Below, piece after piece: positions 4,036-21,434 of a stretch of DNA of 64,000 nucleotides (position 1 is the stretch's first letter; each line of letters opens with the position of its first letter). Made by a program: the position numbers and the translations under genes. Source of the stretch: Bacteroidia bacterium (lineage in GTDB: Bacteria > Bacteroidota > Bacteroidia > UKL13-3); NCBI GenBank assembly GCA_014376805.1, contig JACMQU010000003.1, positions 62,001 to 126,000 on the forward strand, in the 5' to 3' direction. The notes beneath the pieces were generated by a model, which worked only from the letters and a program-made list of their open reading frames with translations, was not told where the DNA came from and searched no databases.

Positions 4036-6717
4036 TTATTTTATTTTCTTATTAATTAGCAGTCGCTGTTCACCAAAATTTAAAATCCGATCTATAAACT
4101 CATAAGGCTTATAACCGCTTAAAGCACACTGATGAAAAATGGCGGTGGCGGGAGTCATTCCTGGTAATGAGTTAACTTCTATAAACACTACTTCAATTTT
4201 GTTTTTAGGAAACACCCTTACAAATGCATCGATTCTGCAATAGCCCTCTACTTTTAAAACTTTGGCGGCGGCTTTTAATTCCTCCTGCACTTTAGCGCTA
4301 ATAATAGCATTATACTTTGGTGATGCAGCATAGCGGGCAGGAGTGATGTTCTGGCCCTGCCCTGCTAAAAACTTTTCTTCCAGACTTAATATTTCGGCTT
4401 CCGCCAAAGTCTCACTGGGTTCAAATGTTTCGTAAACTAGTTTTTTGTTTTTATAGTGTGTAAGCATACCACCGGTTACTTCCAGGAAGTGCGTTGCCTT
4501 ACCTTTTTCAATAAATTTTTCTACCAGGAAAAAATTCTTCCTCGGAAACTCTTCTTTGGGTGCAAGTTTTAATCTTGCTCTTAATAATTCATTTAGTTCC
4601 TGTTCTTGCCTGAAAACGCCTTCTGCATAAGCTATTAGTTGTTCACGGTTCTTAATTTTCTTTACGGCACTGCTGCAACCATCATCTGCAGGTTTGGCAA
4701 TAAGCGGATAACCTATTTTTTCTGCTTTATTTATTACCTTTTGTTGGTTCAGTATAAAATCTTTTTGTTGAACCAACATGTGCTCTGCTACCAAAAAACC
4801 ATTCTTCTTTAATAGCTCATTGGTATCAAATTTATTAATGGTGAGTTGTGAACTTTGCACATCGGAACCATTAAACGGCAACTTAATTTTATGGAGTTCT
4901 TTCTGAACTGTGCCATCTTCTCCGGGTCGCCCATGCAAAGCGATAAAAACAGTATCAGCCATATTCTTTAATACTGCATAGCTTATTTTTTTTGGCTCAA
5001 ACAATTGGCTGTTGCTGTATTTATTTATAATACTTTTGCACTCAGCTATGATCTTTTTCATAATGGGTGCCTGATGATAATGCATTACTTTTTCACGAAT
5101 ATCATCTGCATTATCCTTTAACATTACATTAACAGGTAACAGGTATAACTCGTGGTGCTGATCATTGCCGGTTACAAAAACCGGGAACGGTTGATACTTA
5201 TCTGAAGAAGCAAGTTTCTCATAAATATTACGACCGCTCTCTACAGAAATATGCCGTTCTGTGCTATACCCTCCCATAAAAACAGCCACCCGTTTCTTAG
5301 TAGCTTTCTTGCTTTTGTTAATCGTTAATTGTGCCTCAATATTGTCTAGAAGTTTCTTGTGTTCTTCTTGCATAGGCTGTGTTGCAATTCTTTCAGCAAC
5401 AGAAGTGCGGATGATATACGTTAAAAACTGCGAGGGGTTCAGACCAATTTCTGCGGCCTGGTGAAAGAAAAAGGAAGAGGGCATCATACCTGATGTGGTA
5501 TTAGGATCATTTAAAAACAATTCTCCGTTTGCATTTAAAAAACCATCAATGCGGGCATAAACATGAAAATTAAAATAGGTAAATAAATGTTCACAGGCTT
5601 TCCTTATCTCCTGAATTTTTTCTTCCGGCAAATCCATCGGGGTAATTTTGCGGCTGAGACCGGGAAGGTATTTACTGCGGTAATCATATATTTCCCGGCC
5701 TTTCACTATTTCTGTTGGAGGTAAGGCTACTGCCGAACCATCTTCGTTACGCAATACGATGCAGGAGAACTCGCGACCTTCTATAAAAGATTCAATTAAA
5801 CATTCGGTTTCACTGTATATACTTTCAAGTTGCAGACTTTTTTTTGTTTTAAATGTTTTGTCCAGCAACAACCATAATTTATCCGGATGGTAATAGGTTT
5901 TCCTGTTATAAATGGCGGGTAAACCAATTCCTTCTTTTACATTTGTAATCTTCTGAATAAACTGTGTTTTCTCTGATTTAGATTTCTCAACCCACTCTTT
6001 TTTTGTTATAATCTGTATGAAAAAGGCTTTTTTAACAGCCGTTTCAAATACCTCAAATTCATCAGTGGAAATAACACTCACACCAACTGAACTACCCTGA
6101 TTGGCGGGCTTCACAACAAACGGTATGCCCACTTGTTCTTTGGCATCCGCAAAAATTTGTTTTAGGTTTGCGAGTTTACTTTTATCAAATGCATAATACT
6201 TCGGCACATTCATTCCGGCCGCTTTCATCCATTGTTTTTGCAAACGTTTATTCATACCTGCAGCACTAGGCAATATGCCAGACCCGCTGTAAGGAATGGC
6301 ATACCATTCCAGCAAACCCTGAATGGTTCCATCTTCACCAAAATTACCATGCAAAGCTAAAAATGCAAAATCAAACAGTGCTTTAAATTGATCAGGCCGA
6401 ACCAGTTTTCCAATCTTAGAAGCCATCAGTTTACCGTTATCGGCATAGGCAGCCTTCAGGCTTTCTGCATATACCTGCACTTCCTGTTTAGCCGCTTGTA
6501 AAAAATTAACCGACGGGTAAAAATCGCGGATAGAACCTTTATAAATTAAGTGCCAGTCTAATAAAATAAAGTTGTTGAAACTATCTACAAATATGGGTAC
6601 TGCTTCAAAAATTGTTTTATCAAGATTATCATATACAGTGCGGCCACCAGCGAAAGAAACTTCCCGCTCGCGACTATTACCTCCAAAAAATATTCCTATA
6701 CGGATTCGTCCACTCAT
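4036..6717 (-). CDS. Tandem D-alanine--D-alanine ligase-like protein (two ATP-grasp modules in one chain)
   Basis: 893 residues, about twice the usual Ddl length (300-370). Module 1 (about 5-460) has GGNSREREVS, LHGNFGEDGTIQG, KPANQGSSVGV, a YDYRSKY omega-loop and RIDGF, but its metal/ATP strand reads NDPNTTSGM instead of the usual E-x-N-T-x-P-G-M-T. Module 2 (about 480-890) begins again with GGYSTERHISVESG, has LHGRPGEDGTVQ, KPADDGCSS, CRIDAF and an intact IEVNSLPGMTP, but its omega-loop YDY-K-Y is not recognisable. Each module is thus altered at a different active-site element. Known Ddl enzymes make D-Ala-D-Ala for peptidoglycan from two D-Ala and ATP in the cytoplasm. Whether both halves are active, or one makes another D-X dipeptide, is open. 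It stands alone, convergent with the O-antigen ligase gene. Confidence 0.85.
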   Translation of the reverse strand: MSGRIRIGIFFGGNSREREVSFAGGRTVYDNLDKTIFEAVPIFVDSFNNFILLDWHLIYKGSIRDFYPSVNFLQAAKQEVQVYAESLKAAYADNGKLMASKIGKLVRPDQFKALFDFAFLALHGNFGEDGTIQGLLEWYAIPYSGSGILPSAAGMNKRLQKQWMKAAGMNVPKYYAFDKSKLANLKQIFADAKEQVGIPFVVKPANQGSSVGVSVISTDEFEVFETAVKKAFFIQIITKKEWVEKSKSEKTQFIQKITNVKEGIGLPAIYNRKTYYHPDKLWLLLDKTFKTKKSLQLESIYSETECLIESFIEGREFSCIVLRNEDGSAVALPPTEIVKGREIYDYRSKYLPGLSRKITPMDLPEEKIQEIRKACEHLFTYFNFHVYARIDGFLNANGELFLNDPNTTSGMMPSSFFFHQAAEIGLNPSQFLTYIIRTSVAERIATQPMQEEHKKLLDNIEAQLTINKSKKATKKRVAVFMGGYSTERHISVESGRNIYEKLASSDKYQPFPVFVTGNDQHHELYLLPVNVMLKDNADDIREKVMHYHQAPIMKKIIAECKSIINKYSNSQLFEPKKISYAVLKNMADTVFIALHGRPGEDGTVQKELHKIKLPFNGSDVQSSQLTINKFDTNELLKKNGFLVAEHMLVQQKDFILNQQKVINKAEKIGYPLIAKPADDGCSSAVKKIKNREQLIAYAEGVFRQEQELNELLRARLKLAPKEEFPRKNFFLVEKFIEKGKATHFLEVTGGMLTHYKNKKLVYETFEPSETLAEAEILSLEEKFLAGQGQNITPARYAASPKYNAIISAKVQEELKAAAKVLKVEGYCRIDAFVRVFPKNKIEVVFIEVNSLPGMTPATAIFHQCALSGYKPYEFIDRILNFGEQRLLINKKIK

Positions 6718-6898: not shown

Positions 6899-7648
6899 TT
6901 ATTTTTCAACAATTCCGAATATAACCGGCTTTTCAGGGTACTTTATATATGTTTTGAAAACTTTATCCCAATAAGGAAATACTGAACCATAATTACTATT
7001 GGTTTCCAGTTTAATAATTGAATGATGTATGCGGTGCATTTTAGGGGAGGAAATAAAATACCGAAGCAAAAAATCTGTTTTATCTGTAATCCGTAAGTTT
7101 GAATGATGCAAGGTTATTACAATAAATAAAACAATCCCATAGCCTATTGAAATCCAGCTTTGAATGCCCAGTAAACTAAACACAAATATTTTAATAAGTA
7201 TTGATAAGAACAATTCTCCCGGATGAAATCTGAGTGCTGTGGAAGCAGTCATTTTCTCATCCTTATGATGAAATTTATGAAAGTACCATAATAACGGGAG
7301 TTCATGATTAGCCCTGTGCCACCAGTACATAAATAAATCAATGAGTGTAAATTGTAATAGAACGTTTGCATATTTATTCAGAATAAATTGATTTAAGATG
7401 CCGAAATGATGAGCCGTTGACCAATTAATGCAATAGTTAAAGAGGTAGCCACCTGAAAAAATAATAAGAAAGCCAACAAGTCCTGTTATGAAATTGAAGG
7501 CATCGTTTTTAATATCAATAAGTTCTTTCCTTTGCGGAAATACATGTTCTGCGGTATAAATGATCAGGAATACAATGCCTGAAATAAGACCCTGATAGTA
7601 AGTGAGCAGTTTTGGCAGATCTACCGTTATACCTGCATTTAAAATCAT
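6899..7648 (-). CDS. Sterol desaturase / fatty acid hydroxylase superfamily membrane protein
   Basis: 249 residues with about five hydrophobic helices and the histidine clusters of the di-iron family: HRANHE (about 112-117), HKFHH (about 124-128), HHSNLR and HRIHHS near the C-terminus. These enzymes hydroxylate or desaturate lipid substrates in the membrane using O2. The start ATG at 7648 overlaps the stop of the preceding DUF6134 gene by 4 bases, so it is the last gene of the transcript starting at the arsenosugar genes or at the phosphorylase. Its substrate is unknown; a lipid anchor for an arsenolipid or an ordinary membrane lipid are both possible and cannot be told apart here. Confidence 0.88.
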   Translation of the reverse strand: MILNAGITVDLPKLLTYYQGLISGIVFLIIYTAEHVFPQRKELIDIKNDAFNFITGLVGFLIIFSGGYLFNYCINWSTAHHFGILNQFILNKYANVLLQFTLIDLFMYWWHRANHELPLLWYFHKFHHKDEKMTASTALRFHPGELFLSILIKIFVFSLLGIQSWISIGYGIVLFIVITLHHSNLRITDKTDFLLRYFISSPKMHRIHHSIIKLETNSNYGSVFPYWDKVFKTYIKYPEKPVIFGIVEK

Positions 7649-8241
7649 TTTACTTTACGGATAATAAAATTCTTTATCGGACTTTCCATTTCTGCGGTTA
7701 CCAACTCTCCGTTTTCATAAGTGTATTTATTGGTTTTATTGATCACCACTAACTGATATACATTTGGTTTTACAGCCTTTAGCGGAACCATCACTCCATA
7801 GTTTTCCGCAAGTATGGTTTTTTGTGTAGTAGGTTCTTCAAAGAAAAGTTTTGCCACACTAAATGTAATCGATTCATAAATTGATTTGGTGTTTTTGTCT
7901 TTATAGGTATTTGTATGAACATCATAATGGTCTTTCACCCGCTCTATATGCGAGCTGTAATGCTCCTTGTTAACCAATGATCGGATCACCACATACTGGA
8001 GCTCCTTTTTACTGTAAACACAAATCATTTCATGGCTAATTATAAAATGGTAGAACAACCAAAGGCTAACTTTACTTTCGAGTTTATAATAGGTAAAATT
8101 TCCTTTACTGCTCTTAGAGGTAAAAAGGTTGCCAATTTTTATCCCTGCCACTTCAATGTTATACTTACCGTTAATGGTTGAACCAAATGCAGGAAAAATA
8201 AATAACATAAAAACCAGTAAAAAGAATGTGGGTTTGCTCAT
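7645..8241 (-). CDS. DUF6134-like secreted protein of unknown function
   Basis: 198 residues with an N-terminal signal peptide (hydrophobic run to about residue 20 ending FPAFGS). The body has the beta-rich pattern I associate with DUF6134: a YNIEVAGIKIGNL start, a central SITFSVAKLFFEEP segment, and a terminal YTYENGELVTAEMESP strand pair. It would be exported to the periplasm or held at the envelope. No catalytic motif is visible. It overlaps both neighbours (1 base with the phosphorylase gene, 4 with the hydroxylase), so the three are tightly coupled. The family call is from pattern memory and the function is unknown. Confidence 0.7.
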   Translation of the reverse strand: MSKPTFFLLVFMLFIFPAFGSTINGKYNIEVAGIKIGNLFTSKSSKGNFTYYKLESKVSLWLFYHFIISHEMICVYSKKELQYVVIRSLVNKEHYSSHIERVKDHYDVHTNTYKDKNTKSIYESITFSVAKLFFEEPTTQKTILAENYGVMVPLKAVKPNVYQLVVINKTNKYTYENGELVTAEMESPIKNFIIRKVK

Positions 8242-9053
8242 TACAATCTCTTAATAAGCCCCACAAATAATTCCGTAAGCTTTAATTCGGCCTGTCTGGC
8301 TATGGCAATAATATCTGCTATGTCAACCGGTTTAAGGTTATCCGGATCACACGCATCAGTAAGTACAGAAACAGCAGCGCAAGGCAAATTCATGTGATTG
8401 GCTACAATCACTTCCGGAACGGTACTCATACCTACAGCATCTGCGCCAATAATTTTTAAGAACCTGTATTCTGCACGTGTTTCAAGATTTGGACCTGAAA
8501 CAGCAACATAAACACCTTTGCGTAAAGTGATATTTTTTTCAGTTGCTAGCTCCATAAGCAAGGCATTTATTTTCTTTGAATAAGGCTCACTCATATCCGG
8601 AAAACGAGGACCATAAGTATCCAGGTTTTTTCCTGTTAACGGATTGCCCGGGAGTAAATTTATATGGTCATCAATTAACATCAGGTCACCTTTTTTCCAG
8701 TTAAGGTTAATTCCACCGGCAGCATTTGAAAGAAGCAGGTGGCTTATGCCCAAAGATTTCATAACTCGTATTGGAAAGGTTATCTGTTGAAAATTATAGC
8801 CTTCATAATAATGAAAGCGACCATTCATAACAATAATTTTTTTTCCTTCCAAAGTTCCGTAAATAAGTTTGCCTGAATGAAATTCTAAGGTTGCTTCCGG
8901 AAACCAGGGTATGTCTGTATAATTTATTTCAACTTCAATTTCTATTTTTCTCACCAGGTTGCCAAGGCCAGTGCCCAACACAATACCAATCTCTGGAGAA
9001 GTAATACCGTGAATTTTAAGGAAATTTTCCGCTTCTTGTATTTTTGTAATCAT
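8241..9053 (-). CDS. punA: Purine nucleoside phosphorylase (trimeric, PNP/MTAP family)
   Basis: 270 residues, the usual length. Conserved blocks are VLGTGLG near the N-terminus, GRFHYYEGY (79-86), LLSNAAGGIN, the VSGPNLETRAEYRF block with the purine-contacting Glu191, and GMSTVPEV. The enzyme splits purine nucleosides with phosphate to the free base and ribose 1-phosphate in the cytoplasm. The residue matching human Asn243 is Asp233 (in LTDACDP). In human PNP an Asn-to-Asp change at that place is known to shift specificity to 6-amino purines such as adenosine. I believe Asp here is frequent in Bacteroidota, so this is not unique. It lies downstream of the ArsS and glycosyltransferase genes on the same strand, which suggests a role on an adenosine-linked arsenical. 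Confidence 0.92.
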   Translation of the reverse strand: MITKIQEAENFLKIHGITSPEIGIVLGTGLGNLVRKIEIEVEINYTDIPWFPEATLEFHSGKLIYGTLEGKKIIVMNGRFHYYEGYNFQQITFPIRVMKSLGISHLLLSNAAGGINLNWKKGDLMLIDDHINLLPGNPLTGKNLDTYGPRFPDMSEPYSKKINALLMELATEKNITLRKGVYVAVSGPNLETRAEYRFLKIIGADAVGMSTVPEVIVANHMNLPCAAVSVLTDACDPDNLKPVDIADIIAIARQAELKLTELFVGLIKRL

Positions 9054-9200
9054 GTTTTTTATAAATTCAACGATTTATCTGTATGGAAAAATTAACTGGC
9101 AAAGCGGCAATATAGCGGAGTTTTATAACTTATTTAAATGCTGTGGAAAAGCAAATGTTAGCTTCCGCCATTTACTCATTTGGATATAAATTTATAAAAT

Positions 9201-9887
9201 CTATTTCAATTTTGAAGTATAATAATCTCTGATTTTTTTTGGTTCAACATGGCTCATAAACATTTTGTAAGCAGTATAATTTGCGATCATTACTTTTAAC
9301 CAGTTGTTATATTCATATTTGCGGGCAGAAACCAATGTGCTTTTTTTTAGGATCTTAAATTTTGATAAACGATGTGACCTGATGATGAAGTCATATTCTT
9401 CCATTATTACATAATATTCATTGAACCCGTTTAACTGATTAAATAATTTACGGGTTGTGTATAAGGTTTGATCACCACCCCTGCACCACATATAATTAAA
9501 ACGGGTAAACCATTCGTTAATTAAAAAAAGCCTTTTGTCTGATAAAAACTTTAATCGGTAACAACCACATAAGTAGCCCTGGTATACAGCAGTGAAAATA
9601 TCACTGGCAAAAGTTATGGGCGGGGTACTATCTGCATGAACGAAATATAAAATATCGCCACTGGCTTTTAACGCACCCAAGTTCATTTGAGGAGCTCTGC
9701 CCTTAACGGGCGAGATATAAACAACGGCACCGGCATTTTTAGCGATGTTCACGGTATCATCTTTGCTCCCACCATCTATTACTATCAAATCTGCAACAGC
9801 ATTGCCTCCATTTATTTTGAAAAATCTAATTGTTTGGGCAATCATTTTCTCTTCATTATAAACCGGAATGATGATGCTGATTTTCAT
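9201..9887 (-). CDS. Family 2 glycosyltransferase of the arsenosugar / rSAM-selenodomain set (TIGR04283-like)
   Basis: 228 residues. It starts with the GT-A fold (ISIIIPVYNEE, then VIDGGSKDDT, about 34-44), the QMNLGALKASGDILYFVHAD stretch that holds the sugar-nucleotide and metal site, and a WCRGGDQTLY segment characteristic of this small subfamily. Such proteins occur next to ArsS and a DUF2064 protein in many genomes and are annotated as arsenosugar biosynthesis glycosyltransferases; their biochemistry has, to my knowledge, not been fully shown. The gene is in the same direction as ArsS, 150 bases downstream of the DUF2064 gene. It is inferred to transfer or remodel the sugar part of the arsenosugar in the cytoplasm. 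Confidence 0.88.
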   Translation of the reverse strand: MKISIIIPVYNEEKMIAQTIRFFKINGGNAVADLIVIDGGSKDDTVNIAKNAGAVVYISPVKGRAPQMNLGALKASGDILYFVHADSTPPITFASDIFTAVYQGYLCGCYRLKFLSDKRLFLINEWFTRFNYMWCRGGDQTLYTTRKLFNQLNGFNEYYVIMEEYDFIIRSHRLSKFKILKKSTLVSARKYEYNNWLKVMIANYTAYKMFMSHVEPKKIRDYYTSKLK

Positions 9888-10037
9888 TTTTAATTTTCAG
9901 ATTTATACTCGGTGTAATCAAGTATGTATAATTGCCTTTTGTTTATAGATGTTAAATTTGGTGCAAATTAAATTCTATATTATCAATTTAGCCATAATGT
10001 ATCAGTTATAAATAGGTTTAAAACAAAGGCAGCATTT

Positions 10038-10658
10038 TTAACCGGGTATTAAATGCACAGCCAGCAAATTTTTTAATTCTCTCAGGTCAGCTTCTGTGTC
10101 AATATCACTTAATACTACCAATTTAGTATAAGTTGCCCCACTATTTTTAAAATCTGTAAGCGTATCTTCATAAACCGTATCTGTACTCCAGTGTTTATTC
10201 TCGAAAATATTCGGAGTGTTTTTAGTCATTCCCAGTAAATAATAGCCACCATCTACTGCCGGACCAATTACAAATTTATTTGTATTAAGAAGATCGAAAG
10301 CTTCATTAATTATTGATGCATTTATCTCATAACAATCTGTTCCTATAATAATCACTTTTGTAAAGCCGGCATTAAAAACATATTGAAATGCATTTGACAT
10401 CCTTTCACCTAAACCGGAACCCTGTTGTATCATACGCATAAAATCAGAGGTGGTAGCGTTAGATGTTTCTATGAAATCAGAAAAAAACAAAAACTTTTTT
10501 GCATTGGTATCAAAAGATATTGCATAGGTATGATCAACAAGGAATTTGAAAACATTTAAAGCATTTTCTTCACCAACAGTTGCGGCAAGCCGGGTTTTTA
10601 CTTTTCCTTTAACTTTATTTTTCTGAAAAATGATCAGTGCATTTTTGTCTGTTAGCAT
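10038..10658 (-). CDS. DUF2064 glycosyltransferase-like protein, rSAM/selenodomain-associated (TIGR04282-like)
   Basis: 206 residues. Visible family marks are KVKGKVKTRLA near the N-terminus (a nucleotide-binding loop as in nucleotidyltransferase folds), GSGLGERM, IIIGTDCYEI (the acidic metal site) and GPAVDGGYYLLG (about 136-147). These define the DUF2064 group of GT-A-like proteins that travel with ArsS-type radical SAM genes. It is likely cytoplasmic and may activate or transfer a sugar. The gene starts 18 bases after the ArsS stop, so it is almost certainly co-transcribed with it. The exact reaction is unknown. Confidence 0.88.
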   Translation of the reverse strand: MLTDKNALIIFQKNKVKGKVKTRLAATVGEENALNVFKFLVDHTYAISFDTNAKKFLFFSDFIETSNATTSDFMRMIQQGSGLGERMSNAFQYVFNAGFTKVIIIGTDCYEINASIINEAFDLLNTNKFVIGPAVDGGYYLLGMTKNTPNIFENKHWSTDTVYEDTLTDFKNSGATYTKLVVLSDIDTEADLRELKNLLAVHLIPG

Positions 10659-10676
10659 TTAGCTTCTGTTTGATCC

Positions 10677-11711
10677 CTATACTGTAGTACCTCCGCAGCT
10701 TGATCCGGCACCTGCAGTACAACCATAACAATGCTCATTAACCACAATATTTCTGTTCTCCAAAATTTCTGTATTAAAATCAGACAGATGTCTGCTAAGC
10801 GGAGTGGATACATTTAATTCTAACATCTGATTAAAATCACAGTCATACAAGTAACCATCCCAACTCACCGAAATAGTATTCCGGCACATTACACCAGCAG
10901 CAGCACCCGGATTAAATGCATTGACCAGTTTCTCCATATAACCCTCATAATTATTACTAGTGATGAGGTAATTTAAAAAGCGGTTTACAGGTATATTGGT
11001 AATAGCAAATAAACTATTGAATACAATACCATACTGCTTCCATAATTTAAGTTTAAACTCAAGTTCCAAAGCATGTTGAGCAGCAGGCAGAAATGCACCG
11101 GCCGGATTATAAACGAGGTTAATAATCAAATTACTTCCTTCAATACCATACCCAACTTCGTTCAGCATTTTTAAAGCTTTAATAGATTTTTCAAAGACTC
11201 CTTCTCCCCGTTGTGAGTCTGTTTTTATGGCAGTAAAATAGGGCAATGAAGAAACAACTTCTATCTGGTGTTTTTTAAAAAAATCAGGCAGGTCATTATA
11301 TTTGGGATTTGCTACGATGATGGTTAAGTTACATCTAACAATAATTTTTTTGCCCAGGGCAGATAACTCTTCCACAAACCACCTGAAATCAGGATTCATT
11401 TCAGGAGCACCTCCGGTTAGATCAATGGTGGTTACGCTGGTTTTTCTGATGGCAATTAAACATAGTTCCATCATATCCCTGGTCATGATTTCTTTTCTAT
11501 CAGGGCCGGCATCAACGTGGCAATGCTTGCAAACCTGATTGCACATTTTACCCATGTTTATCTGGAAGATATCCAGGTGAGTTGGCTTTAAAGGTAATAA
11601 ACCTATAAGGTCTAATTTTTCAGCAAAAGGAGTAAAGGCCGACTGTTCGAGTGTTTCTATCTGACGTTGTGCGGGAGAGAGCGGATGTTGCTGTACTTTT
11701 AAAGATTTCAT
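10677..11711 (-). CDS. arsS: Arsenosugar biosynthesis radical SAM protein ArsS
   Basis: 344 residues. The radical SAM cluster motif is C57-x3-C61-x2-C64 (CNQVCKHCHVDAGP), followed by the SAM-binding LTGGAPEMNP stretch (about 98-107). The C-terminal Cys-rich DUF3641-type domain shows VMCRN, YDCDFNQ, HCYGC and ends AGAGSSCGGTTV. ArsS uses a 5'-deoxyadenosyl radical to add the deoxyadenosyl group to trivalent dimethylarsenic, giving a dimethylarsinoyl-adenosine, the committed precursor of arsenosugars (known for the cyanobacterial enzyme). The gene lies between a CMD-like partner (9 bases upstream) and the DUF2064 gene (18 bases downstream). No selenocysteine codon is seen in the tail; the Cys form is present. 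An arsM methyltransferase, needed to supply methylarsenic, is not in this window. Confidence 0.93.
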   Translation of the reverse strand: MKSLKVQQHPLSPAQRQIETLEQSAFTPFAEKLDLIGLLPLKPTHLDIFQINMGKMCNQVCKHCHVDAGPDRKEIMTRDMMELCLIAIRKTSVTTIDLTGGAPEMNPDFRWFVEELSALGKKIIVRCNLTIIVANPKYNDLPDFFKKHQIEVVSSLPYFTAIKTDSQRGEGVFEKSIKALKMLNEVGYGIEGSNLIINLVYNPAGAFLPAAQHALELEFKLKLWKQYGIVFNSLFAITNIPVNRFLNYLITSNNYEGYMEKLVNAFNPGAAAGVMCRNTISVSWDGYLYDCDFNQMLELNVSTPLSRHLSDFNTEILENRNIVVNEHCYGCTAGAGSSCGGTTV

Positions 11712-11720
11712 AAAAGGGAA

Positions 11721-12053
11721 TTACATAGAAAGCTCTTTAAATTTATTCATCATTTGAACGCTATGCACCAGCAATGCTCCGCCTTTTATTGCTGCCGCCA
11801 CATGCACTGCCTCCATTACCTGTTGCTCATCACAACCTTTCTCCATTGTATCCACCGTATAGGCATCAATGCAATAAGGGCACTGAACTGCATGCGCCAC
11901 TGCAAGTGCAATCAATGATTTTTCTCGCGCGGTTAAAGCACCTTCTTTAAAAACTTCCCCATAATAATCAAAGAATTTTTTAGCCAGGTTGGGTTCAAAT
12001 TCACCAATGTTTCCAAATTTTTTAAGGTCTTCCGGGTTGTAATAAGTTTTCAT
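11721..12053 (-). CDS. Carboxymuconolactone decarboxylase / peroxidase-like protein associated with ArsS
   Basis: 110 residues, a single CMD/AhpD-like domain. The redox pair is in CPYCIDAYT (about 54-62), preceded by LIALAVAHAVQ and followed by the helix with VMEAVHVAAAIKGGALLVHS, typical of the AhpD fold. In many genomes a protein of this type stands directly before ArsS and is named arsenosugar biosynthesis-associated peroxidase-like protein. A thiol redox role, for example keeping arsenic trivalent for ArsS, is inferred. It is the first gene of the minus-strand operon; its start faces the divergent decayed barrel gene across about 255 bases that should hold both promoters. Confidence 0.88.
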   Translation of the reverse strand: MKTYYNPEDLKKFGNIGEFEPNLAKKFFDYYGEVFKEGALTAREKSLIALAVAHAVQCPYCIDAYTVDTMEKGCDEQQVMEAVHVAAAIKGGALLVHSVQMMNKFKELSM

Positions 12054-12308
12054 GTTTTATGGTTTAAGATTTTTTCATAATTACGAAAATAACAATATGT
12101 TGGATTTTTAACGTAAAATAAGATTATGCAATTTAAAAATATTTAATTGCTTATACATTAAAATTCCTGATTGAGGTAAAGCCATAAATTGTTGCTGATA
12201 TTGCCTTTAAGTATATTACCGGTAAAGGATACTCTTGCCGTATTTATTTTACAGCGCATAGCTAAACGAAATTTTACCAACCCTTCCCGGTTGTGATCAA
12301 TAAAAAAA

Positions 12309-13390
12309 ATGTCTTCTATTTACTGGTGGTTTCTTATAGGATTAAACTCTATGGCACAAGCAGATATCAGTAAAAATAAACCATTAAAAAGGGTCAGGTG
12401 TTTTGTTTTACCACTGATTTTTTATTCCCCTGAAACAAAATTAGGGGGTTGGAGTTTCAGGCATTGTTACCTTTCACTTAAAGAACGATTCACTTAATGG
12501 CCAACCTTTAAACGTGCAGTTTGGTGTTGCTTTTACAGAACTTAAACAACTTTTGTTTTATTTTCCTTTTCAGGTTTTTTTTAATAATGAATATTTTCTG
12601 GTTTATGAAAAAGGAGGTTATTATATCTACAATTATTTGTTTTATGGTATTGGTAATCTTCAATCACCTCCTCAGAGCGAAACTTATAGTGTTACTTTTC
12701 CGAGGGTGCGTTTAAATGTTCTAAAACGCGTTTAAATGTAGTTTTATGCCGGTTTAAGATATTTGTATTCACGACTTTGATATAACCGCTACAGAGCCCT
12801 CGAAACAACTTTACACAGGCATTATTACCGGAAGTAACGGCGGTTTAACATCAGGTGCCGGAATGGTATCAAGATTCGATAACCGGAATAATTTTTTTTA
12901 TCCAAGCAATGGCTTTTAGGCAGAATTCTTTTTTCAGGCTGATGATAAATGGACAGGAAGTAATTTCAGTTTTGTGAAATATTCGCTTGATGTTAGCGCG
13001 TATTTATCAACAAAATTTAACCATACATTTGCTTTAAATCTTTATTCCGTAATTAATACTGGCAATCCTCCATTTAATTAAATGGCACTTATTGGCGGTA
13101 CTAAAAAAATGCGGGGTTATTATGAAGAGAGATTCCGGGATAAAGATCTTACTATGTTACAGGGTAAATACAGCGTTCCTTTGTTCTGGCGCTCCAGTGT
13201 AGTAGCATTTGCAGGTTGTGGCCTCGTTTCTTATAAGTTAATTAATTATCATGTATCAAATCTTAAATATAATTAGGGTGGAGGGTTAAGATTTATGGTA
13301 GACCAAAAGCAAAAAATCAATATTCGCATGGATTATGGTACAGGGGGGAAGGAAGGCAATTTTTATCTGGCAATACCAAAAGCTTTTTAA
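12309..13390 (+). pseudogene. Decayed Omp85/BamA-TamA-type surface antigen beta-barrel protein
   Basis: Fragments in changing frames align to one barrel protein. From 12309 a frame has VLPLIFYSPETKLGG, the usual N-terminal barrel signature. From 12514 the next frame continues QFGVAFTEL, YYIYNYLFYGIGN. Around 12860-12910 comes FDNRNNFFYPSNGF (the D-x-R-x-x-x-F-x-P-x-x-G strand) and then a TAG. From 13082 the frame gives LIGGTKKMRGYYEERFRDK, the conserved GG-x-RGY-RD turn. It ends KAF at 13390. At least two frameshifts and three in-frame stops (after the G-F at about 12918, before MALIGG at about 13079, and at 13273) separate the pieces. These proteins insert in the outer membrane. The gene would have been the first of the divergent arm of the arsenosugar locus. 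Confidence 0.8.
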
Positions 13391-13466
13391 AAGTAAAAAC
13401 TAAATCCTAAACCACTATTTTTTCGTATTTTAGAAAGTAAACAAGCAATATTAAAATGAACCCAGT

Positions 13467-14201
13467 ATGAAATTAAAAATATTCTTAACTTTATGGAGCG
13501 GAATTATTTTGTCAACCCAACTGTCTGCGCAGTTTTCACATGATATCTGGAATAGTTTGCTTAAAAAGCATGTTTCTTCTGCGGGCATTGTAGATTACAA
13601 AGGTTTTATTAAAGATAGCATGGATTTGAATAAATACCTGAAACTTTTAAGTGATAATCCACCCGATGCGTTTAAAAACTCAAAGAATGATCAGATGGCT
13701 TATTGGATAAATGCTTATAATTCTTTTACCATTAAACTAATTATCAGGTATTATCCTGTTAAAAGTATAAAAGACATTGCAGGAAAAATCCCTTTTGTAA
13801 ATACGCCATGGGACATAAAATTTATAAAGATAGGAAATGAAACGTATGACCTTAATAATATTGAACATGGTAAATTGCGTAAAAAATTTAATGATCCTCG
13901 TGTGCACATGGCACTTGTATGCGCTTCCAAATCGTGCCCAATTCTGTTGAATGAAGCCTTTACAGGTGCAAAACTCGATGCACAGTTTGAAAAGCAGGCT
14001 AAGTCATTTCTGGCCGACCCATTCAGAAATAAAATATCTCCGGATAAACCGCAGATAAGCCTAATTTTTAAATGGTACGCAATGGATTTTAAAAAGAATG
14101 GTGGTTCTGTTGTTAGTTTCATTAATAAATATTCATCGCTAAAGATCAATCAGAATGCCACGATTGATCACCTCAATTACGACTGGAGTTTAAATGAGTA
14201 A
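13467..14201 (+). CDS. DUF547 domain protein, exported
   Basis: 244 residues with a signal peptide (LKIFLTLWSGIILSTQLSAQ, cleavage after about residue 21). The DUF547 core is clear: QMAYWINAYNSFTIKL (about 78-93), the NNIEHGKLR helix, and ALVCASKSCPILLNEAF (about 149-165) with a Cys pair. The family has a papain/transglutaminase-like look and no settled function; it is probably periplasmic. In other genomes DUF547 proteins are often encoded with rSAM/selenodomain (arsenosugar) genes. Here it starts 76 bases after the end of the decayed barrel and precedes the FAD oxidoreductase gene by 21 bases, so it is in the same transcript. Confidence 0.88.
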   Translation: MKLKIFLTLWSGIILSTQLSAQFSHDIWNSLLKKHVSSAGIVDYKGFIKDSMDLNKYLKLLSDNPPDAFKNSKNDQMAYWINAYNSFTIKLIIRYYPVKSIKDIAGKIPFVNTPWDIKFIKIGNETYDLNNIEHGKLRKKFNDPRVHMALVCASKSCPILLNEAFTGAKLDAQFEKQAKSFLADPFRNKISPDKPQISLIFKWYAMDFKKNGGSVVSFINKYSSLKINQNATIDHLNYDWSLNE

Positions 14202-14222
14202 TTTTAAAAGAACCGGATCACT

Positions 14223-15512
14223 ATGCAACAACATATTGTAATCATTGGTAATGGAATTTCAGGCATTACCTGTGCCCGGAATATTCGCAAACTAAGTGAT
14301 CATCGCATTACAGTAATTTCTGCTGAAACGAAACACTTTTTTTCGCGCACGGCTTTAATGTATGTTTACATGGGACATATGCGCTTTGAAGATATTAAAC
14401 CTTATGAAGACGGGTTTTGGGAAAAGAACAGGATAGAATTAATGCATCAGCATGTTATCGGGGTTGATCCCATTGCTAAAACTGTTTTATTAGCAAATAG
14501 TTCCCGTTTAACTTTTGATAAGTTGGTTATTGCTTCCGGGTCTGTGTCTGCCAGATTTGATTGGCCGGGCCAAAATCTAAAAGGCGTGCAAAGTTTATAT
14601 TCATTTCAGGACCTGGAGTTAATGAATGAAAATACCAAAGATATTAAACAAGCTGTAATTGTTGGAGGCGGACTTATTGGTATAGAAATGGCGGAGATGC
14701 TACACTCCAGACAAATTGGGGTTACCATGCTGGTTCGTGAAAAAAAATTCTGGGATACCGTTCTTCCAACGCAAGAGGCAAGCATGATCGGAGACCATAT
14801 CAGGGAATACAAGATTGATCTGAGGCAGGAGGAGGAGCTTCTGGAAATTAATGGAGATGAGAACGGAAAAGTTAAATCAGTAACCACAAAAAATGGAGAA
14901 GAAATTGCCTGCCAGTTTGTGGGGTTAACCGTTGGGGTAAAACCGAATATTGCTTTTTTAAGGGAGAGTGGTATAGAAACAGATAAAGGAGTTTTGGTGA
15001 ATGAATTTTTACAAACCAATGTACAAGATGTTTTTGCCATTGGAGATTGTGCGCAATTTAAAACTCTTTTAAAAGGAAGAAAGGCCATCGAGCAAGTTTG
15101 GTATACTGGTCGTATGCAAGCAGAAACATTGGCCAATACCTTATGTAAGCAACCTGTAACCTATAACCCAGGTAACTGGTTTAATTCAGCAAAGTTTTTC
15201 GATATCGAATATCAGACTTATGGCATCGTTTTAAATAAGGCCTTAGAAAATGAGGAGGTATTTTATTGGAAACATAACAGCAATAAACGTTCATTGCGGA
15301 TAGTTTTTATGAATGATACCAAAGTGGTAACGGGTTTTAATGTATTTGGGATGCGTTTAAGACACGAAATTTGTGACAAGTGGCTCAATGAAAAGAGCAC
15401 AGTTGATCAGGTTATAGCAAATCTTCAGGAAGCTGTTTTTGATCCCGAATTTTATAAATCCTATTACAAAGAAATTGCGCATGCTTATCATTCAAAATTA
15501 ATTACAACATAA
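14223..15512 (+). CDS. NAD(P)/FAD-dependent oxidoreductase (pyridine nucleotide-disulfide family)
   Basis: 429 residues. The N-terminal FAD-binding site is IVIIGNGISGITCARNIR (about 5-22). A second dinucleotide site for NAD(P)H is AVIVGGGLIGIEMAEML (about 142-158), and the FAD-closing motif is DVFAIGDCAQF (about 269-279). No redox CxxxxC pair is present near the FAD, so it resembles ferredoxin/rubredoxin reductases or NDH-2-like enzymes rather than disulfide reductases. A C-terminal extension of about 100 residues is unassigned. It is followed within 6 bases by a membrane 4Fe-4S protein, which suggests that electrons flow NAD(P)H to FAD to Fe-S. It is cytoplasmic and part of the divergent arm of the arsenosugar locus. 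Confidence 0.88.
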   Translation: MQQHIVIIGNGISGITCARNIRKLSDHRITVISAETKHFFSRTALMYVYMGHMRFEDIKPYEDGFWEKNRIELMHQHVIGVDPIAKTVLLANSSRLTFDKLVIASGSVSARFDWPGQNLKGVQSLYSFQDLELMNENTKDIKQAVIVGGGLIGIEMAEMLHSRQIGVTMLVREKKFWDTVLPTQEASMIGDHIREYKIDLRQEEELLEINGDENGKVKSVTTKNGEEIACQFVGLTVGVKPNIAFLRESGIETDKGVLVNEFLQTNVQDVFAIGDCAQFKTLLKGRKAIEQVWYTGRMQAETLANTLCKQPVTYNPGNWFNSAKFFDIEYQTYGIVLNKALENEEVFYWKHNSNKRSLRIVFMNDTKVVTGFNVFGMRLRHEICDKWLNEKSTVDQVIANLQEAVFDPEFYKSYYKEIAHAYHSKLITT

Positions 15513-15518
15513 AAATAT

Positions 15519-16883
15519 ATGGACAATACTAATCCCTCATTGAGCATCAGTAATCCACATCCTGAACATACAGACTGGATGCAGAAATCTGGCCTGGTAC
15601 TGGTTTTATCAGGATTATCTGTGCTATTCTTAGCATTTATTGGAATTGCAAAACAGGCACCCTTAATTCTTTTTGTTTTAAGTTTTGGCATGCTCCTGTC
15701 GGGGTCGGTTATTTATACCATAAGAACGTATTTAACCGTGCATGAAGGCGTTAAAAATAACCATAATTTCTCCAGATCACTCACCTCAAGGGGTGTTTTA
15801 GCCTGGATGCTAGGGATTCTTATAACTTTATTCTATATCATAATATACTGGTATCCACAATTGCTTCAAAATGTAATTTCTATTATGAATCCCTTTAGTA
15901 ATTTACTTCGTGGAAGGCCTGCCGATCGATGGTTTTTATATGGTAGTTTGTACACAACCGCAGTATTGGCAATGGGCTTTAAAGCACTATTAAAATACAG
16001 ATACAGCAATTATCAACGCATCAGAACTTCTTCTGTTATTTTCTTTCAGTTAGCTTTTAGTTTTCTAATACCCGGTCTTCTGCAATTGTTTAATCAGCCT
16101 GAATTTTATTTTAGTTATTTCTGGCCTTTAAAATATGATTATTTATTTCCTTCAACAGTACATAGTTTAATTAATCATCCGGGAGGTATGGGTGTGTTTA
16201 TGGTTTTCTGGGGAGCAGCTATTACTTTTATCGCAACACCTATACTCACTTATTTCTTTGGCAAACGATGGTATTGCTCCTGGGTATGCGGTTGCGGAGG
16301 TTTAGCCAATACAGCTGGTGATCCATTCAGACAACTTTCTGATAAATCTATTAAAGCATGGAAGATAGAAAGATGGAGTGTATATTCTGTGTTGGTTTTT
16401 ATCATAATTACAACTATTTTGTTATGGATAAACTCAATTACCAATGGTAGCATCTTTGGTGAGCTTTCACAAAATTTTGCAAAGGCTTACGGATTTTTTA
16501 TTGGAGCCATTTTTTCTGGTGTTATAGGGGTTGGATTTTACCCTATAATGGGAACGAGGGTATGGTGTAGGTTTGGTTGCCCAATGGCAGCTATATTAGG
16601 CATTCAGCAGAAATTTTTTTCCAGGTTTAGAATAACAACTAATGGGGGTCAGTGTATTTCATGCGGTAATTGTTCAACTTATTGCGAGATGGGGATAGAT
16701 GTTCGGTCATACGCACAAAAGGGGCAAAACATTGTTCGGGCTTCATGTGTTGGATGTGGTATTTGTGCTACTGTTTGTCCGCGTGGTGTTTTAAAATTAG
16801 AAAATGGCTCGGTTCAAAACAGAGTAAGTAACCAACCTATTTTGATTGGAAATAATAGTGTAAGACTAAATGAGCAGCTTTAA
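15519..16883 (+). CDS. Membrane-bound 4Fe-4S ferredoxin-type electron transfer protein (NapH/polyferredoxin-like)
   Basis: 454 residues with about seven membrane helices. Cys motifs after helices 5 and 7 (RWYCSWVCGCGG and VWCRFGCPMAAI) are typical of NapH/NosR/CcoG-like proteins. Two ferredoxin clusters lie at the C-terminus: CISCGNCSTYCEMG (about 385-398) and CVGCGICATVCPRG (about 412-425). It would carry electrons across or along the inner membrane. It starts 6 bases after the FAD oxidoreductase stop. A role in giving electrons to the radical SAM enzyme or in reducing arsenicals is inference from position only. Confidence 0.88.
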   Translation: MDNTNPSLSISNPHPEHTDWMQKSGLVLVLSGLSVLFLAFIGIAKQAPLILFVLSFGMLLSGSVIYTIRTYLTVHEGVKNNHNFSRSLTSRGVLAWMLGILITLFYIIIYWYPQLLQNVISIMNPFSNLLRGRPADRWFLYGSLYTTAVLAMGFKALLKYRYSNYQRIRTSSVIFFQLAFSFLIPGLLQLFNQPEFYFSYFWPLKYDYLFPSTVHSLINHPGGMGVFMVFWGAAITFIATPILTYFFGKRWYCSWVCGCGGLANTAGDPFRQLSDKSIKAWKIERWSVYSVLVFIIITTILLWINSITNGSIFGELSQNFAKAYGFFIGAIFSGVIGVGFYPIMGTRVWCRFGCPMAAILGIQQKFFSRFRITTNGGQCISCGNCSTYCEMGIDVRSYAQKGQNIVRASCVGCGICATVCPRGVLKLENGSVQNRVSNQPILIGNNSVRLNEQL

Positions 16884-17077
16884 AGAAGTAATGTATGCAT
16901 ATTTAAACTTATTGATACAATAAAAAGAAGGGTATAAAATACAGGGTAAAATTATAGTTGAAGTATCCTTAAGCGTAAATAATTTGAACCAGGTAATTAT
17001 TAAAAAAGACACAGAAAAGAATTAATAACGTAAGTATGCCAACGCTTACTAAATAATTGATATATACTAAATAAAAA

Positions 17078-17599
17078 ATGAAAAAAAAATTAATGACCAT
17101 CATCGCGCTTGCAACTATATTTATATTTGCCGGCGCACAAAATTCTCCTCAAAAAAAAGTTGTTAGAGCAGAAGTAAAACAAGCTCCGGCTACTATTGAA
17201 ATATTTGATGGAAAAAAAATTCATCATTCTGACGCCGAATGGAAAAAAATACTAAGCAATGATCAATACTATATAACCAGAGAAAAAGGTACTGAACCAA
17301 CATGGAGCAGTGAATTTAATAAAAATAAGGATAAAGGAGTTTATTATTGTGTTAGTTGCAATTTACCTTTATATAGTTCCGATAATAAATTTGAATCCGG
17401 AACGGGATGGCCGAGTTTTTATAAACCGGTTAATCCTAAAAATGTATTTGTAGCCAAAGATAATACAATGGGTATGGAAAGAGATGAAGTGCTTTGTGCG
17501 AGATGTGAGGCGCATTTGGGGCATGTATTTAATGATGGTCCCCAACCAACAGGTTTACGGTATTGCATGAATGGAGTTGCTCTAAAGTTTAAAAAATAA
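17078..17599 (+). CDS. msrB: Peptide-methionine (R)-S-oxide reductase MsrB, exported
   Basis: 173 residues including a signal peptide (to about residue 21, AGAQ). The MsrB fold shows the zinc pairs C91-x2-C94 (CVSCNLPLY) and C140-x2-C143 (CARCEAHLGHVF), the FESGTGWPSF block and catalytic Cys163 in GLRYCMNG. It reduces the R-epimer of methionine sulfoxide in proteins. The signal peptide places it in the periplasm or envelope. Its stop overlaps the start of the DUF1223 gene by one base (TAATG), and msrA follows, so the three form an envelope repair operon. Confidence 0.95.
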   Translation: MKKKLMTIIALATIFIFAGAQNSPQKKVVRAEVKQAPATIEIFDGKKIHHSDAEWKKILSNDQYYITREKGTEPTWSSEFNKNKDKGVYYCVSCNLPLYSSDNKFESGTGWPSFYKPVNPKNVFVAKDNTMGMERDEVLCARCEAHLGHVFNDGPQPTGLRYCMNGVALKFKK

Positions 17600-18390
17600 T
17601 GATGCCATTTAATGCTTTTTCTATTTCAATTATTTTATTTTCATGTTGGTTTGCTGAACCAAATATAGCATCGGGAAAGAAATTGACAAAGGAGGGTTTT
17701 TATAAAAATGATACTGCTCTGAAACCTGTTGTTATAGAAATGTTTTCTTCCGAGGGGTGCTCAAGTTGTCCGCCTGCGGCTATTGTTATGGATAAAATTA
17801 TTTTAAAAGCAGCGAAACAAAATAAGCCTGTTTACCTGTTAGATTTTCATGTAGATTACTGGGATCATATTGGTTGGAAAGATGTACTGGCAAAACCCGA
17901 ATTTACTACCAGGCAAAGGCATTATGGAAAGACTTTGGGTTTAATTGGTATTTATACGCCACAAGCTATCCTTAATGGAATTAAAGAAATGGTGGGCAGC
18001 GACCGGAAAAAAATTAACATCAGTATTATAGAAGAATTAAAGAAGAATAAACAAGTAAAATTAAATTGCCATATTTATGTTGATCCCACAAAAAAAACTT
18101 TATCAGTTAACTATCAGGTTTCTGACAATTGTAATAACGCTGTAATTAATTTTGCATTGGTTCAAACTAAAGTAACCCACAAAATTTTAAGTGGAGAGAA
18201 CAGAGGGGAGACTTTAGCCCATAGAAATGCAGTGCTTTTCTTTGATCAGGATATGCTGCTTGCTTCAAATGGATTAAAATCTATACCTCACACTCCTGAC
18301 CCTTTAAAAGAGTATAGCATGCTCATTTATATTCAGGATAAAACTACTATGGAAATACTGGCTGCTTGTCCGGTAAATCTTTATAAATAG
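17599..18390 (+). CDS. DUF1223 thioredoxin-like exported protein
   Basis: 263 residues with an N-terminal hydrophobic export signal. The thioredoxin-like motif is FSSEGCSSCPPA (about 48-59), with a CxxC pair, followed by VDYWDHIGWKD and a YTPQAILNG strand that resembles the cis-proline region of thioredoxins. These mark the DUF1223 family, whose function is not known. Placement between msrB and msrA suggests it supplies or passes reducing equivalents to the exported Msr enzymes. That partner role is inference. Confidence 0.88.
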   Translation: MMPFNAFSISIILFSCWFAEPNIASGKKLTKEGFYKNDTALKPVVIEMFSSEGCSSCPPAAIVMDKIILKAAKQNKPVYLLDFHVDYWDHIGWKDVLAKPEFTTRQRHYGKTLGLIGIYTPQAILNGIKEMVGSDRKKINISIIEELKKNKQVKLNCHIYVDPTKKTLSVNYQVSDNCNNAVINFALVQTKVTHKILSGENRGETLAHRNAVLFFDQDMLLASNGLKSIPHTPDPLKEYSMLIYIQDKTTMEILAACPVNLYK

Positions 18391-18465
18391 CATTTGCTTT
18401 TTTGTTTAAACAGCTGCAAATATATGGGCGTTAATAAACTATAATAATTACAAATCAAACATATT

Positions 18466-19146
18466 ATGAAAACAACTTCTTTATTATTCATTTCTATATT
18501 TCTCATTCCATTATTCATTTCCTGTTCTCAAACAACGCAAGAATCAAAGCATAAAACAGCCTCGGAAACTGCGCACGTTGCTGAACCAAAAGACTTAACA
18601 GGCTTGTCTGTAGCCACCTTTGCATCCGGATGTTTCTGGTGTATGGAGGGTGTTTACGAAAGTGTTATAGGGGTTGAAGAAGTTGTTTCAGGATACGCCG
18701 GTGGTAATGAAATAAATCCTACTTATGAAGAAGTGGGTTCAGGCAAAACAGACCATGCAGAAACCGTTCAGGTTTATTATGATTCATCTAAAGTTAGTTT
18801 TGAAACGCTCCTAAAAGTTTATTTTGCTTCGCAGAATCCAACCCAAATTGATGGTCAGGGACCGGACAATGGCAGGCAATACCGTTCAATTATTTTCTAT
18901 AATAATGTTTACGAAAAAAAGATAACTCTTGTTTACATTCAACAAATGAATAATTCCGGAAAACTGAATGGAACTGTGGCCGCTCAACTACTTCCTTTTG
19001 TGAAATTCTGGAAAGCGGAAGACTACCATCAGGATTATATTCTGCACAATGAAAATGATTCTTATGTGCAACAAGAATCCATTCCACGTATCGGTAAATT
19101 TCAGAAAAAGTACCCTGAGCTGATAAAAGCGCACAAGAAATATTAA
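18466..19146 (+). CDS. msrA: Peptide-methionine (S)-S-oxide reductase MsrA, lipoprotein
   Basis: 226 residues. A lipoprotein signal with LFISC puts the lipidated Cys at residue 20. The MsrA domain starts at about 50 with ATFASGCFWCMEG, catalytic Cys56, then VVSGYAGG and DHAETVQVYYD. It reduces the S-epimer of methionine sulfoxide. Membrane anchoring in the envelope matches the exported MsrB upstream, so both epimers can be repaired outside the cytoplasm. The gene follows DUF1223 by 75 bases on the same strand. Confidence 0.95.
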   Translation: MKTTSLLFISIFLIPLFISCSQTTQESKHKTASETAHVAEPKDLTGLSVATFASGCFWCMEGVYESVIGVEEVVSGYAGGNEINPTYEEVGSGKTDHAETVQVYYDSSKVSFETLLKVYFASQNPTQIDGQGPDNGRQYRSIIFYNNVYEKKITLVYIQQMNNSGKLNGTVAAQLLPFVKFWKAEDYHQDYILHNENDSYVQQESIPRIGKFQKKYPELIKAHKKY

Positions 19147-19224
19147 TTTATTATTACAAAAGAATCTCAGATTGGATTAGTATAATTACAAGCCTTATAT
19201 TTAATATAAAAAATACTTTTTCTG

Positions 19225-21416: not shown

Positions 21417-21434
21417 GTTCTGCCTGCATAACCT

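Follow-up and report, generated by a model that had tools for sequence, protein, structure and literature searches.

Arsenosugar genes and a redox-glycosyltransferase module that co-occur in the Bacteroidia: a locus of two apparently separable arms

Does the gene run that stands beside the arsenosugar enzyme ArsS in a bacterial chromosome belong to the same pathway, and if so, to which part of it? The question is raised by a stretch of 64,000 nucleotides from a Bacteroidia bacterium (GenBank assembly GCA_014376805.1, contig JACMQU010000003.1, positions 62,001 to 126,000; hereafter the window, numbered from its first letter), in which a minus-strand run of genes around ArsS faces a plus-strand run encoding a flavin adenine dinucleotide (FAD) oxidoreductase, a membrane Fe-S protein and three glycosyltransferases (GTs). 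To our knowledge, the steps that follow ArsS in arsenosugar and arsenolipid synthesis are open, the later ones being for the most part family names with no shown reactions. Sequence comparison suggests that the locus is made of two separable units, an arsenosugar pathway on the minus arm and a module on the plus arm (13467-22775); our preferred reading, offered tentatively, is that the two are co-inherited in the class and that the second, a glycoconjugate module, acts upon the arsenosugar product in some membrane form, or operates in parallel with it.

A radical SAM (S-adenosylmethionine) enzyme has been reported to adenosylate arsenic, and ArsM and ArsS to begin arsenosugar synthesis in Synechocystis (PMC12159101, PMC8552651). 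Other papers turned up on arsenosugar and ArsS topics (PMC13171826, PMC10456119, PMC13188914, PMC13077682). Among the titles and abstract openings listed for searches on ArsS and arsenosugar genes, nothing was found on a module of FAD protein, NapH-like protein and GTs with ArsS, the module itself not having been searched by name. The genes on which the argument turns are the following.

10677-11711, minus strand: ArsS, the arsenosugar radical SAM enzyme (TIGR04167, 443.7 bits; cut-off 300)
11721-12053, minus strand: AhpD/CMD-like, peroxidase-like protein of family TIGR04169, CXXC present (188.3 bits; cut-off 120)
10038-10658, minus strand: TIGR04282/DUF2064 protein, a CofC-like nucleotidyl- or glycosyltransferase (188 bits; cut-off 134)
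9201-9887, minus strand: arsenosugar-associated GT2 of family TIGR04283 (196.1 bits; cut-off 182)
8241-9053, minus strand: purine nucleoside phosphorylase, PNP (NF006054, 347.6 bits, cut-off 218; TIGR01700, 299.7 bits, cut-off 293.35)
14223-15512, plus strand: FAD/NAD(P)H oxidoreductase of the NirB-N/ferredoxin-reductase type, the FAD protein (PF07992, 185.4 bits; PDB profile matches)
15519-16883, plus strand: NapH-like membrane Fe-S protein (TIGR02163, 58.3 bits, below the cut-off of 213.05)
19225-20724, plus strand: GTbig, a membrane GT2 of the cellulose/PgaC synthase type (PF13641, 83.1 bits; PgaC_IcaA, 112.8 bits, below the cut-off of 422.3)
20721-21416, plus strand: GTdpm, a GT2 resembling polyprenyl- or dolichyl-phosphate-sugar synthases (AglJ, 119.5 bits, below the cut-off of 325)
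21435-22775, plus strand: GTC, a GT-C glycosyltransferase with about 11 transmembrane segments (structure model and Foldseek; MptB, NF038066, 28.6 bits, below the cut-off of 40)

Judged by its families, the minus run is an arsenosugar locus, as a preliminary description made from the DNA letters alone had held: four curated families (TIGR04167, TIGR04169, TIGR04282 and TIGR04283) score above their cut-offs, that is, four of the five in the NCBIfam arsenosugar set, the fifth, NF038099, not being found here. The radical SAM motif CX3CX2C of ArsS is intact (Cys57, Cys61 and Cys64), and the genome holds this one ArsS match only at E 0.001 or better. Assignment of the protein as a prokaryotic viperin (PADLOC, 22.1 bits) was rejected against the 443.7 bits for ArsS. 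The sole solved-structure match of the DUF2064 protein is 3cgx (E 8.3e-23). Among the matches listed, no NCBIfam arsenosugar model exceeded its cut-off on the FAD protein, the NapH-like protein or the three plus-arm GTs.

The link between the two arms lies in their joint distribution over genomes. ArsS was found above cut-off in 66 of 395 genomes of the class and in 47 of 128 of the phylum, two samples that share some genomes; the class sample also held the FAD protein in 78 genomes (each match at least 490 bits), GTC in 84 and TIGR04282 above cut-off in 92. ArsS and the FAD protein occurred together in 55 class genomes against 13.0 expected, ArsS and GTC in 61 (14.0 expected), and the FAD protein and GTC in 73 (16.6 expected), while TIGR04282 accompanied ArsS in 66 of 66 (15.4 expected). 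Counted by genus, 49 of the 53 ArsS genera carried the FAD protein, with 16.5 expected. The best GTC match fell below 300 bits in 11 of the 84 genomes, some of these being split or lying in longer proteins; without them ArsS still met GTC in 58 of 66 genomes (12.2 expected) and the FAD protein met GTC in 66 of 78 (14.4 expected), and the conclusion of co-occurrence therefore stays. When presence was permuted within families, none of 20000 shuffles reached the observed value for any of three pairs: ArsS and the FAD protein (45, with 30.8 expected), ArsS and GTC (50, with 36.0) and ArsS and TIGR04282 (54, with 35.7).

The preliminary description had claimed that the glycosyltransferase and redox genes recur with ArsS in other genomes, and had pointed to gene neighbourhood as the place to look. 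The 146 neighbourhoods compared were those of the window, of the 80 top-scoring ArsS matches in other genomes (mostly Bacteroidota by title) and of 65 class-sample loci, which span at most 20 kb and in several cases run into the end of a contig; ArsS was recovered in 145, being missed in L120, and the family profile adds five CMD-like members to the clusters. Genes were clustered by single linkage, which replaced a Louvain clustering that had put the window ArsS alone in its cluster, and the counts for ArsS and FAD loci alike are lower bounds, long antisense open reading frames (ORFs) having displaced real genes in some loci. On this count the partners of ArsS were CMD (107), DUF2064 (84), the arsenosugar ArsM (58), DUF547 (45), PNP (45), TIGR04283 (37) and rhodanese (26). 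The plus-arm genes were fewer: GTdpm 19, the FAD protein 18, GTbig 17, the NapH-like protein 17 and GTC 14, the three GTs and the redox genes recurring with similar frequency. As a statement on physical neighbourhood the claim is thus only partly true, and it fails by the condition that the preliminary description itself had set for refutation, most relatives having ArsS homologues that lack these neighbours; what rescues a looser link between ArsS and the redox genes is their genome-wide co-occurrence in the class.

Around the FAD gene itself the arrangement is firmer. The FAD gene was called in 86 loci after 69 more loci of the class sample had been fetched, a number one short because in L264 the gene is present but displaced. 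In 81 of them a NapH-like gene follows FAD in the same orientation, and within 7 kb stand GTdpm (36 loci), GTbig (36), DUF547 (25), GTC (22), ArsS (12) and longer DUF547-like proteins that form a cluster of their own (12). The FAD gene thus hardly ever lacks its NapH-like partner, whether or not ArsS is present; the three GTs often come next, and in many loci they are missing. All five genes, in the order FAD, NapH-like, GTdpm, GTbig, GTC, are contiguous in L128, L105, L149 and L214. The last of these, from Salinimicrobium xinjiangense, holds both units on one locus, with ArsS, CMD, DUF2064 and PNP as well; L185, from Zunongwangia atlantica, also joins both units and has ArsM besides, GTC not being seen in the stretch fetched. 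Of the 73 genomes with both FAD and GTC, 26 have the two within 10 kb; of the 55 with both ArsS and FAD, 15 have them no more than 25 kb apart, where by our own arithmetic chance would put them so close in about 1% of 4-Mb genomes. The FAD gene and the arsenosugar ArsM lie within 25 kb of each other in 14 of 29 genomes. One genome (G163) has two FAD-NapH pairs, one beside ArsS (L125) and one elsewhere (L278). In 12 of the 86 loci (e.g., L239, L240 and L242) a gene for a GH113-type glycoside hydrolase, so called from the one cluster member scanned against Pfam, lies no more than 7 kb from FAD, each time on the opposite strand.

What might such a module do? The FAD protein is closest to ferredoxin reductases, NADH oxidases, CoA-disulfide reductases and NirB N-terminal domains, and is without a signal-like N-terminus. 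A CXXXXC pair was looked for in it and none was found; its sole invariant cysteine (276) sits in a GDC motif, and the active-site cysteine of CoA-disulfide reductases, at the position we take it to hold, has no counterpart. Its partner has about seven transmembrane segments by a crude hydropathy count, 13 cysteines and two 4Fe-4S ferredoxin motifs, with one exact CX3CP at residues 350-355, the other motif being CX3CX1C; the structure model is poor (pLDDT 57.8). With systems that join NapH/MauN-like proteins to NirB-N/ferredoxin-reductase partners, the pair appears to share the membrane Fe-S protein, the CX3CP, the two 4Fe-4S motifs and a FAD partner without a disulfide. It differs in that the window protein lies far below the NapH cut-off, and no nitrate reductase was found among the window proteins scanned, which were not every ORF.

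The genes for GTbig, GTdpm and GTC overlap or stand 18 bases apart. GTdpm matches the dolichol monophosphate mannose synthase 5mlz over residues 7-212 (E 1.5e-7). The AlphaFold model of GTC (pLDDT 86.6) found ALG6, GPI mannosyltransferase I, PimE and ALG3 among its first seven Foldseek matches, at modest E values of 7.4e-4 to 7.0e-3 and with TM-scores by query length of 0.51-0.57; a GPI transamidase subunit was also matched. These four enzymes use lipid-phosphate sugars, and several entry titles name such substrates. The arrangement recalls the pairs that work through dolichyl- or polyprenyl-phosphate-mannose, a dolichol-phosphate-mannose synthase with a GT-C enzyme of the PimE/MptB/ALG3/PIG-M type, in that a GT-C fold stands beside a GT2 with a match to such a synthase; here, in contrast, both proteins fall below the MptB and AglJ cut-offs and are joined to the FAD-NapH pair. 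From its families, predicted fold and neighbourhood, the plus arm looks like a membrane or periplasmic glycoconjugate module, and we infer that it may act on the arsenosugar.

A number of observations weigh against such a joint function. The co-occurrence tests had no unrelated patchy gene as a negative control, and the permutation took in 126 labelled genomes of 17 mixed families, labels being available for 234 of the 395 genomes and the rest being dropped. The FAD protein is absent from 11 of the 66 ArsS genomes of the class and GTC from 5, and 23 of the 78 FAD genomes lack ArsS, 18 of these 23 having TIGR04282. The redox genes stand beside ArsS in few of the 65 class-sample loci (FAD 9, NapH-like 7), compared with 22 for DUF547, 12 for TIGR04283 and 41 for TIGR04282. 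Outside the class there is no association, the FAD protein being present in 5 of 37 genomes with ArsS and 3 of 43 without it (Fisher p 0.46), the 43 being the first by number. The best solved-structure match of GTdpm is a glucosyl-3-phosphoglycerate synthase (E 8.6e-11), over residues 6-126 only. Two genomes (G155 and G186), whose assemblies are rated 100% complete, hold the whole FAD-NapH-GT cluster without ArsS, and G144 (L114) and G286 (L093), which hold the closest matches to the window's ArsS, CMD, TIGR04283 or PNP genes, have neither the FAD protein nor GTC. When the window's proteins were compared by BLAST with the fetched loci, L093 gave the best match for ArsS and CMD, L114 for TIGR04283 and PNP, and L155 for TIGR04282; for the other arm it was L076 for the FAD protein, NapH-like protein, MsrB and MsrA, L067 for GTdpm and GTC, and L269 for GTbig and DUF547. 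The nearest relatives of the two arms differ, and the junction may therefore be recent; the sequences suggest two separable arms that may have met in the window only lately.

Much of this suits the alternative that the arms are functionally unrelated, the FAD-NapH-GT genes making a mannose-type glycolipid or glycan of their own, with both sets moving together or suiting the same free-living members of the class. It is served by the complete module without ArsS in G155 and G186, by the want of an association outside the class, by the unlike relatives of the arms and by G144, which has the minus arm with ArsM and not the module; the DUF2064 protein that both share may strengthen the co-occurrence pattern, and the GH113-type gene near FAD hints at mannan, an activity we assume for that family. 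It leaves unexplained why the excess of co-occurrence persists within families, why the FAD gene lies near ArsM in G424, G360, G440 and G380 when ArsS is far off or on another contig, and why, outside the class, L191 from the Ignavibacteria has it one gene from ArsS, and in G463, G519 and G522, three of the five genomes with both, its start is no more than 3 kb from ArsS. We regard this alternative as possible, if on the less probable side.

The preliminary description had proposed that the redox arm feeds electrons to the radical SAM cluster or to arsenic reduction, taken here as the [4Fe-4S] cluster of ArsS and the reduction of As(V) intermediates. In its favour, the FAD protein is of the ferredoxin-reductase type and adjoins an Fe-S membrane protein, and its gene starts within 2.5 kb of ArsS in five genomes (G249, G351, G163, G463 and G522). 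Such a supply is hard to reconcile with the 11 class genomes and the 32 of 37 outside the class in which ArsS lacks the FAD protein, or with the 23 class genomes in which the reverse holds; after the NapH-like protein, the commonest partners of the FAD protein are glycosyltransferases. Moreover, ArsS homologues are reportedly active in vitro with ordinary reductants. With each protein found without the other, and with no association outside the class, the redox pair is therefore unlikely to be an electron donor of ArsS, and we rate the proposal as a whole as highly improbable; the pair more probably serves a glycoconjugate pathway in the membrane that is inherited along with arsenosugar synthesis.

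The remaining features of the two arms, and of the ground between them, are listed here.

6899-7648, minus strand: membrane protein of the FA_hydroxylase superfamily, at the end of the minus run (PF04116, 102.5 bits)
7645-8241, minus strand: DUF6134 protein with a signal-like N-terminus (PF19630, 65.7 bits; its cluster has members in 8 of 146 ArsS loci, counting the window)
12445-13387, plus strand: decayed outer-membrane barrel, apparently of the Omp85 type, in five fragments (fragment BLAST; PF01103 in intact relatives)
13467-14201, plus strand: DUF547 protein with a signal-like N-terminus (PF04784, 93.0 bits; cut-off 27)
17078-17599, plus strand: MsrB with a signal-like N-terminus (TIGR00357, 183.4 bits; cut-off 113.05)
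17599-18390, plus strand: DUF1223 protein, between MsrB and MsrA (PF06764, 162.7 bits)
18466-19146, plus strand: MsrA with a lipoprotein-like N-terminus (TIGR00401, 156.5 bits; cut-off 108.1)

The signal-like N-termini of DUF547, MsrB and MsrA were judged by eye; the window's MsrB and MsrA, both with export-type N-termini, flank DUF1223 between the NapH-like and GT genes, and MsrB/MsrA genes adjoin GTbig and GTC in locus L190 as well. The genes named in the preliminary description are all present as intact ORFs, the barrel excepted, and its outline of the locus needs two corrections: the hydroxylase and DUF6134 genes, which overlap by 4 bases, fall outside the span of 8241-16883 that it gave, and the plus-strand run, instead of ending at 16883, continues through MsrB, DUF1223, MsrA and the three GTs to 22775. 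Whether the hydroxylase belongs to the arsenosugar pathway is uncertain. Composition is even over the window (guanine-plus-cytosine fraction 0.319-0.381 in 2-kb steps) and therefore marks no island boundary, and no match came from scanning it against Rfam or for tRNA genes; the Pfam scans took in 39 window proteins or fragments, not every ORF. Elsewhere in the window, an 893-residue protein (4036-6717, minus strand) carries two D-Ala-D-Ala-ligase-like modules in one chain, with two N-terminal and four C-terminal-domain stretches of that type by Pfam, and a protein with a HipA-like kinase C-terminal domain lies at 38588-39553 on the minus strand.

The barrel between the arms had been called decayed, and so it proved: five fragments (12445-12732, 12758-12916, 12920-13078, 13082-13273 and 13277-13387) align one after another along a single protein of about 365 residues, and by its sequence this is an Omp85-type pseudogene. 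Intact relatives of 361-383 residues occur in five ArsS loci, 1.5-5.1 kb from ArsS, and in one FAD locus; the two that were scanned (L114 and L100) both match PF01103, the Omp85 family. In L093, L100 and L114 the intact barrel is divergent from ArsS beyond CMD, as in the window, with DUF547 intervening in L114.

A broken barrel raises the further alternative that the locus is a decaying remnant whose genes are being lost, and the search for ArsM bears on it directly. The preliminary description had placed the missing arsM elsewhere in the genome or the methylated arsenic outside the cell; no such gene was found in the source assembly (3.88 Mb in 183 contigs, 88.5% complete), which leaves supply from outside the cell, or an arsM that the incomplete assembly lacks. 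The best match of this genome to the arsenosugar ArsM model NF038099 reached 28.6 bits against a cut-off of 400. For NF008823, searched in this genome only, none of eight matches exceeded the cut-off of 263, the best (45.5 bits) reading as a UbiE/MenG-type protein, and by eye no ArsM was seen among the genome's eight methyltransferase candidates. The organism may thus use imported methylated arsenic, or carry arsM in the part of the genome that is missing. Over the 66 ArsS genomes of the class, NF038099 scored above cut-off in 34, had a best match of 80-116 bits in 18 and of 36 bits or less in 14, this genome included. The other 13 with no match of at least 80 bits are all rated 97% complete or better, and ArsS without a recognisable ArsM is therefore not rare.

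Decay of the whole locus would suit the barrel pseudogene, the missing ArsM and an isolated occurrence in the window's own family, where ArsS is above cut-off in 1 of 64 genomes. For the preferred reading it counts that the FAD protein is rare there too: of 62 genomes of the family, 7 reached E 1e-40 or better, but six of these scored 139-145 bits compared with 737 in the genome itself, and 1 had a match at orthologue level. Against decay, the other named ORFs are intact, the arsenosugar, PNP and Msr proteins score above their cut-offs, the CX3CX2C of ArsS and the cysteines of the NapH-like protein are preserved, and the 13 genomes just mentioned likewise have no ArsM-like match; loss in progress is for these reasons a most improbable explanation. 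On plasmids, ArsS was seen in 51 of 72,556 records, 46 of them from Burkholderia and one from Hymenobacter.

Returning to the preferred reading of two co-inherited units, a course of events can be proposed. ArsS would link the 5'-deoxyadenosyl group of SAM to methylated arsenic, as is reported for ArsS homologues; PNP, proposed to split the resulting dimethylarsinoyl-deoxyadenosine, would strip its adenine to give arsenoribose-1-phosphate; the DUF2064 protein would activate or transfer this sugar phosphate, and the TIGR04283 GT would attach the aglycone. On the plus arm, families, fold and neighbourhood suggest that GTdpm charges polyprenyl-phosphate with a hexose, that the GT-C enzyme moves that sugar at the periplasmic face and that the acceptor is made or lengthened by GTbig, a GT2 of the processive type. 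Electrons from NAD(P)H might pass through the FAD protein to its NapH-like partner and there serve a redox step of the module in the membrane or periplasm. A more specific version, in which a lipid-carrier-linked or cell-surface arsenosugar has its arsenoribose decorated by the polyprenyl-phosphate-mannose/GT-C route, is redox-adjusted by the NAD(P)H-FAD-NapH-like relay and is displayed or exported with the Omp85 barrel and DUF547, appears doubtful.

Set against the ArsM-ArsS pathway of Synechocystis PCC 6803, in a comparison that covers the pathway and not the gene neighbourhood, the locus shares the ArsS family and the same proposed first dedicated step (PMC8552651, PMC12159101). It differs in that no ArsM was found, in the AhpD-like, PNP, DUF2064, GT2 and barrel neighbours of ArsS, and in the redox and GT arm joined to them. 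ArsS carriers are widespread in the class and the phylum, and the tracking of ArsS by the module within the class (GTC in 61 of 66 ArsS genomes) hints at a further late step of the pathway. The module's recognisable biochemistry, a polyprenyl-phosphate sugar, a GT-C enzyme and a FAD/Fe-S relay, names candidate genes and products for it.

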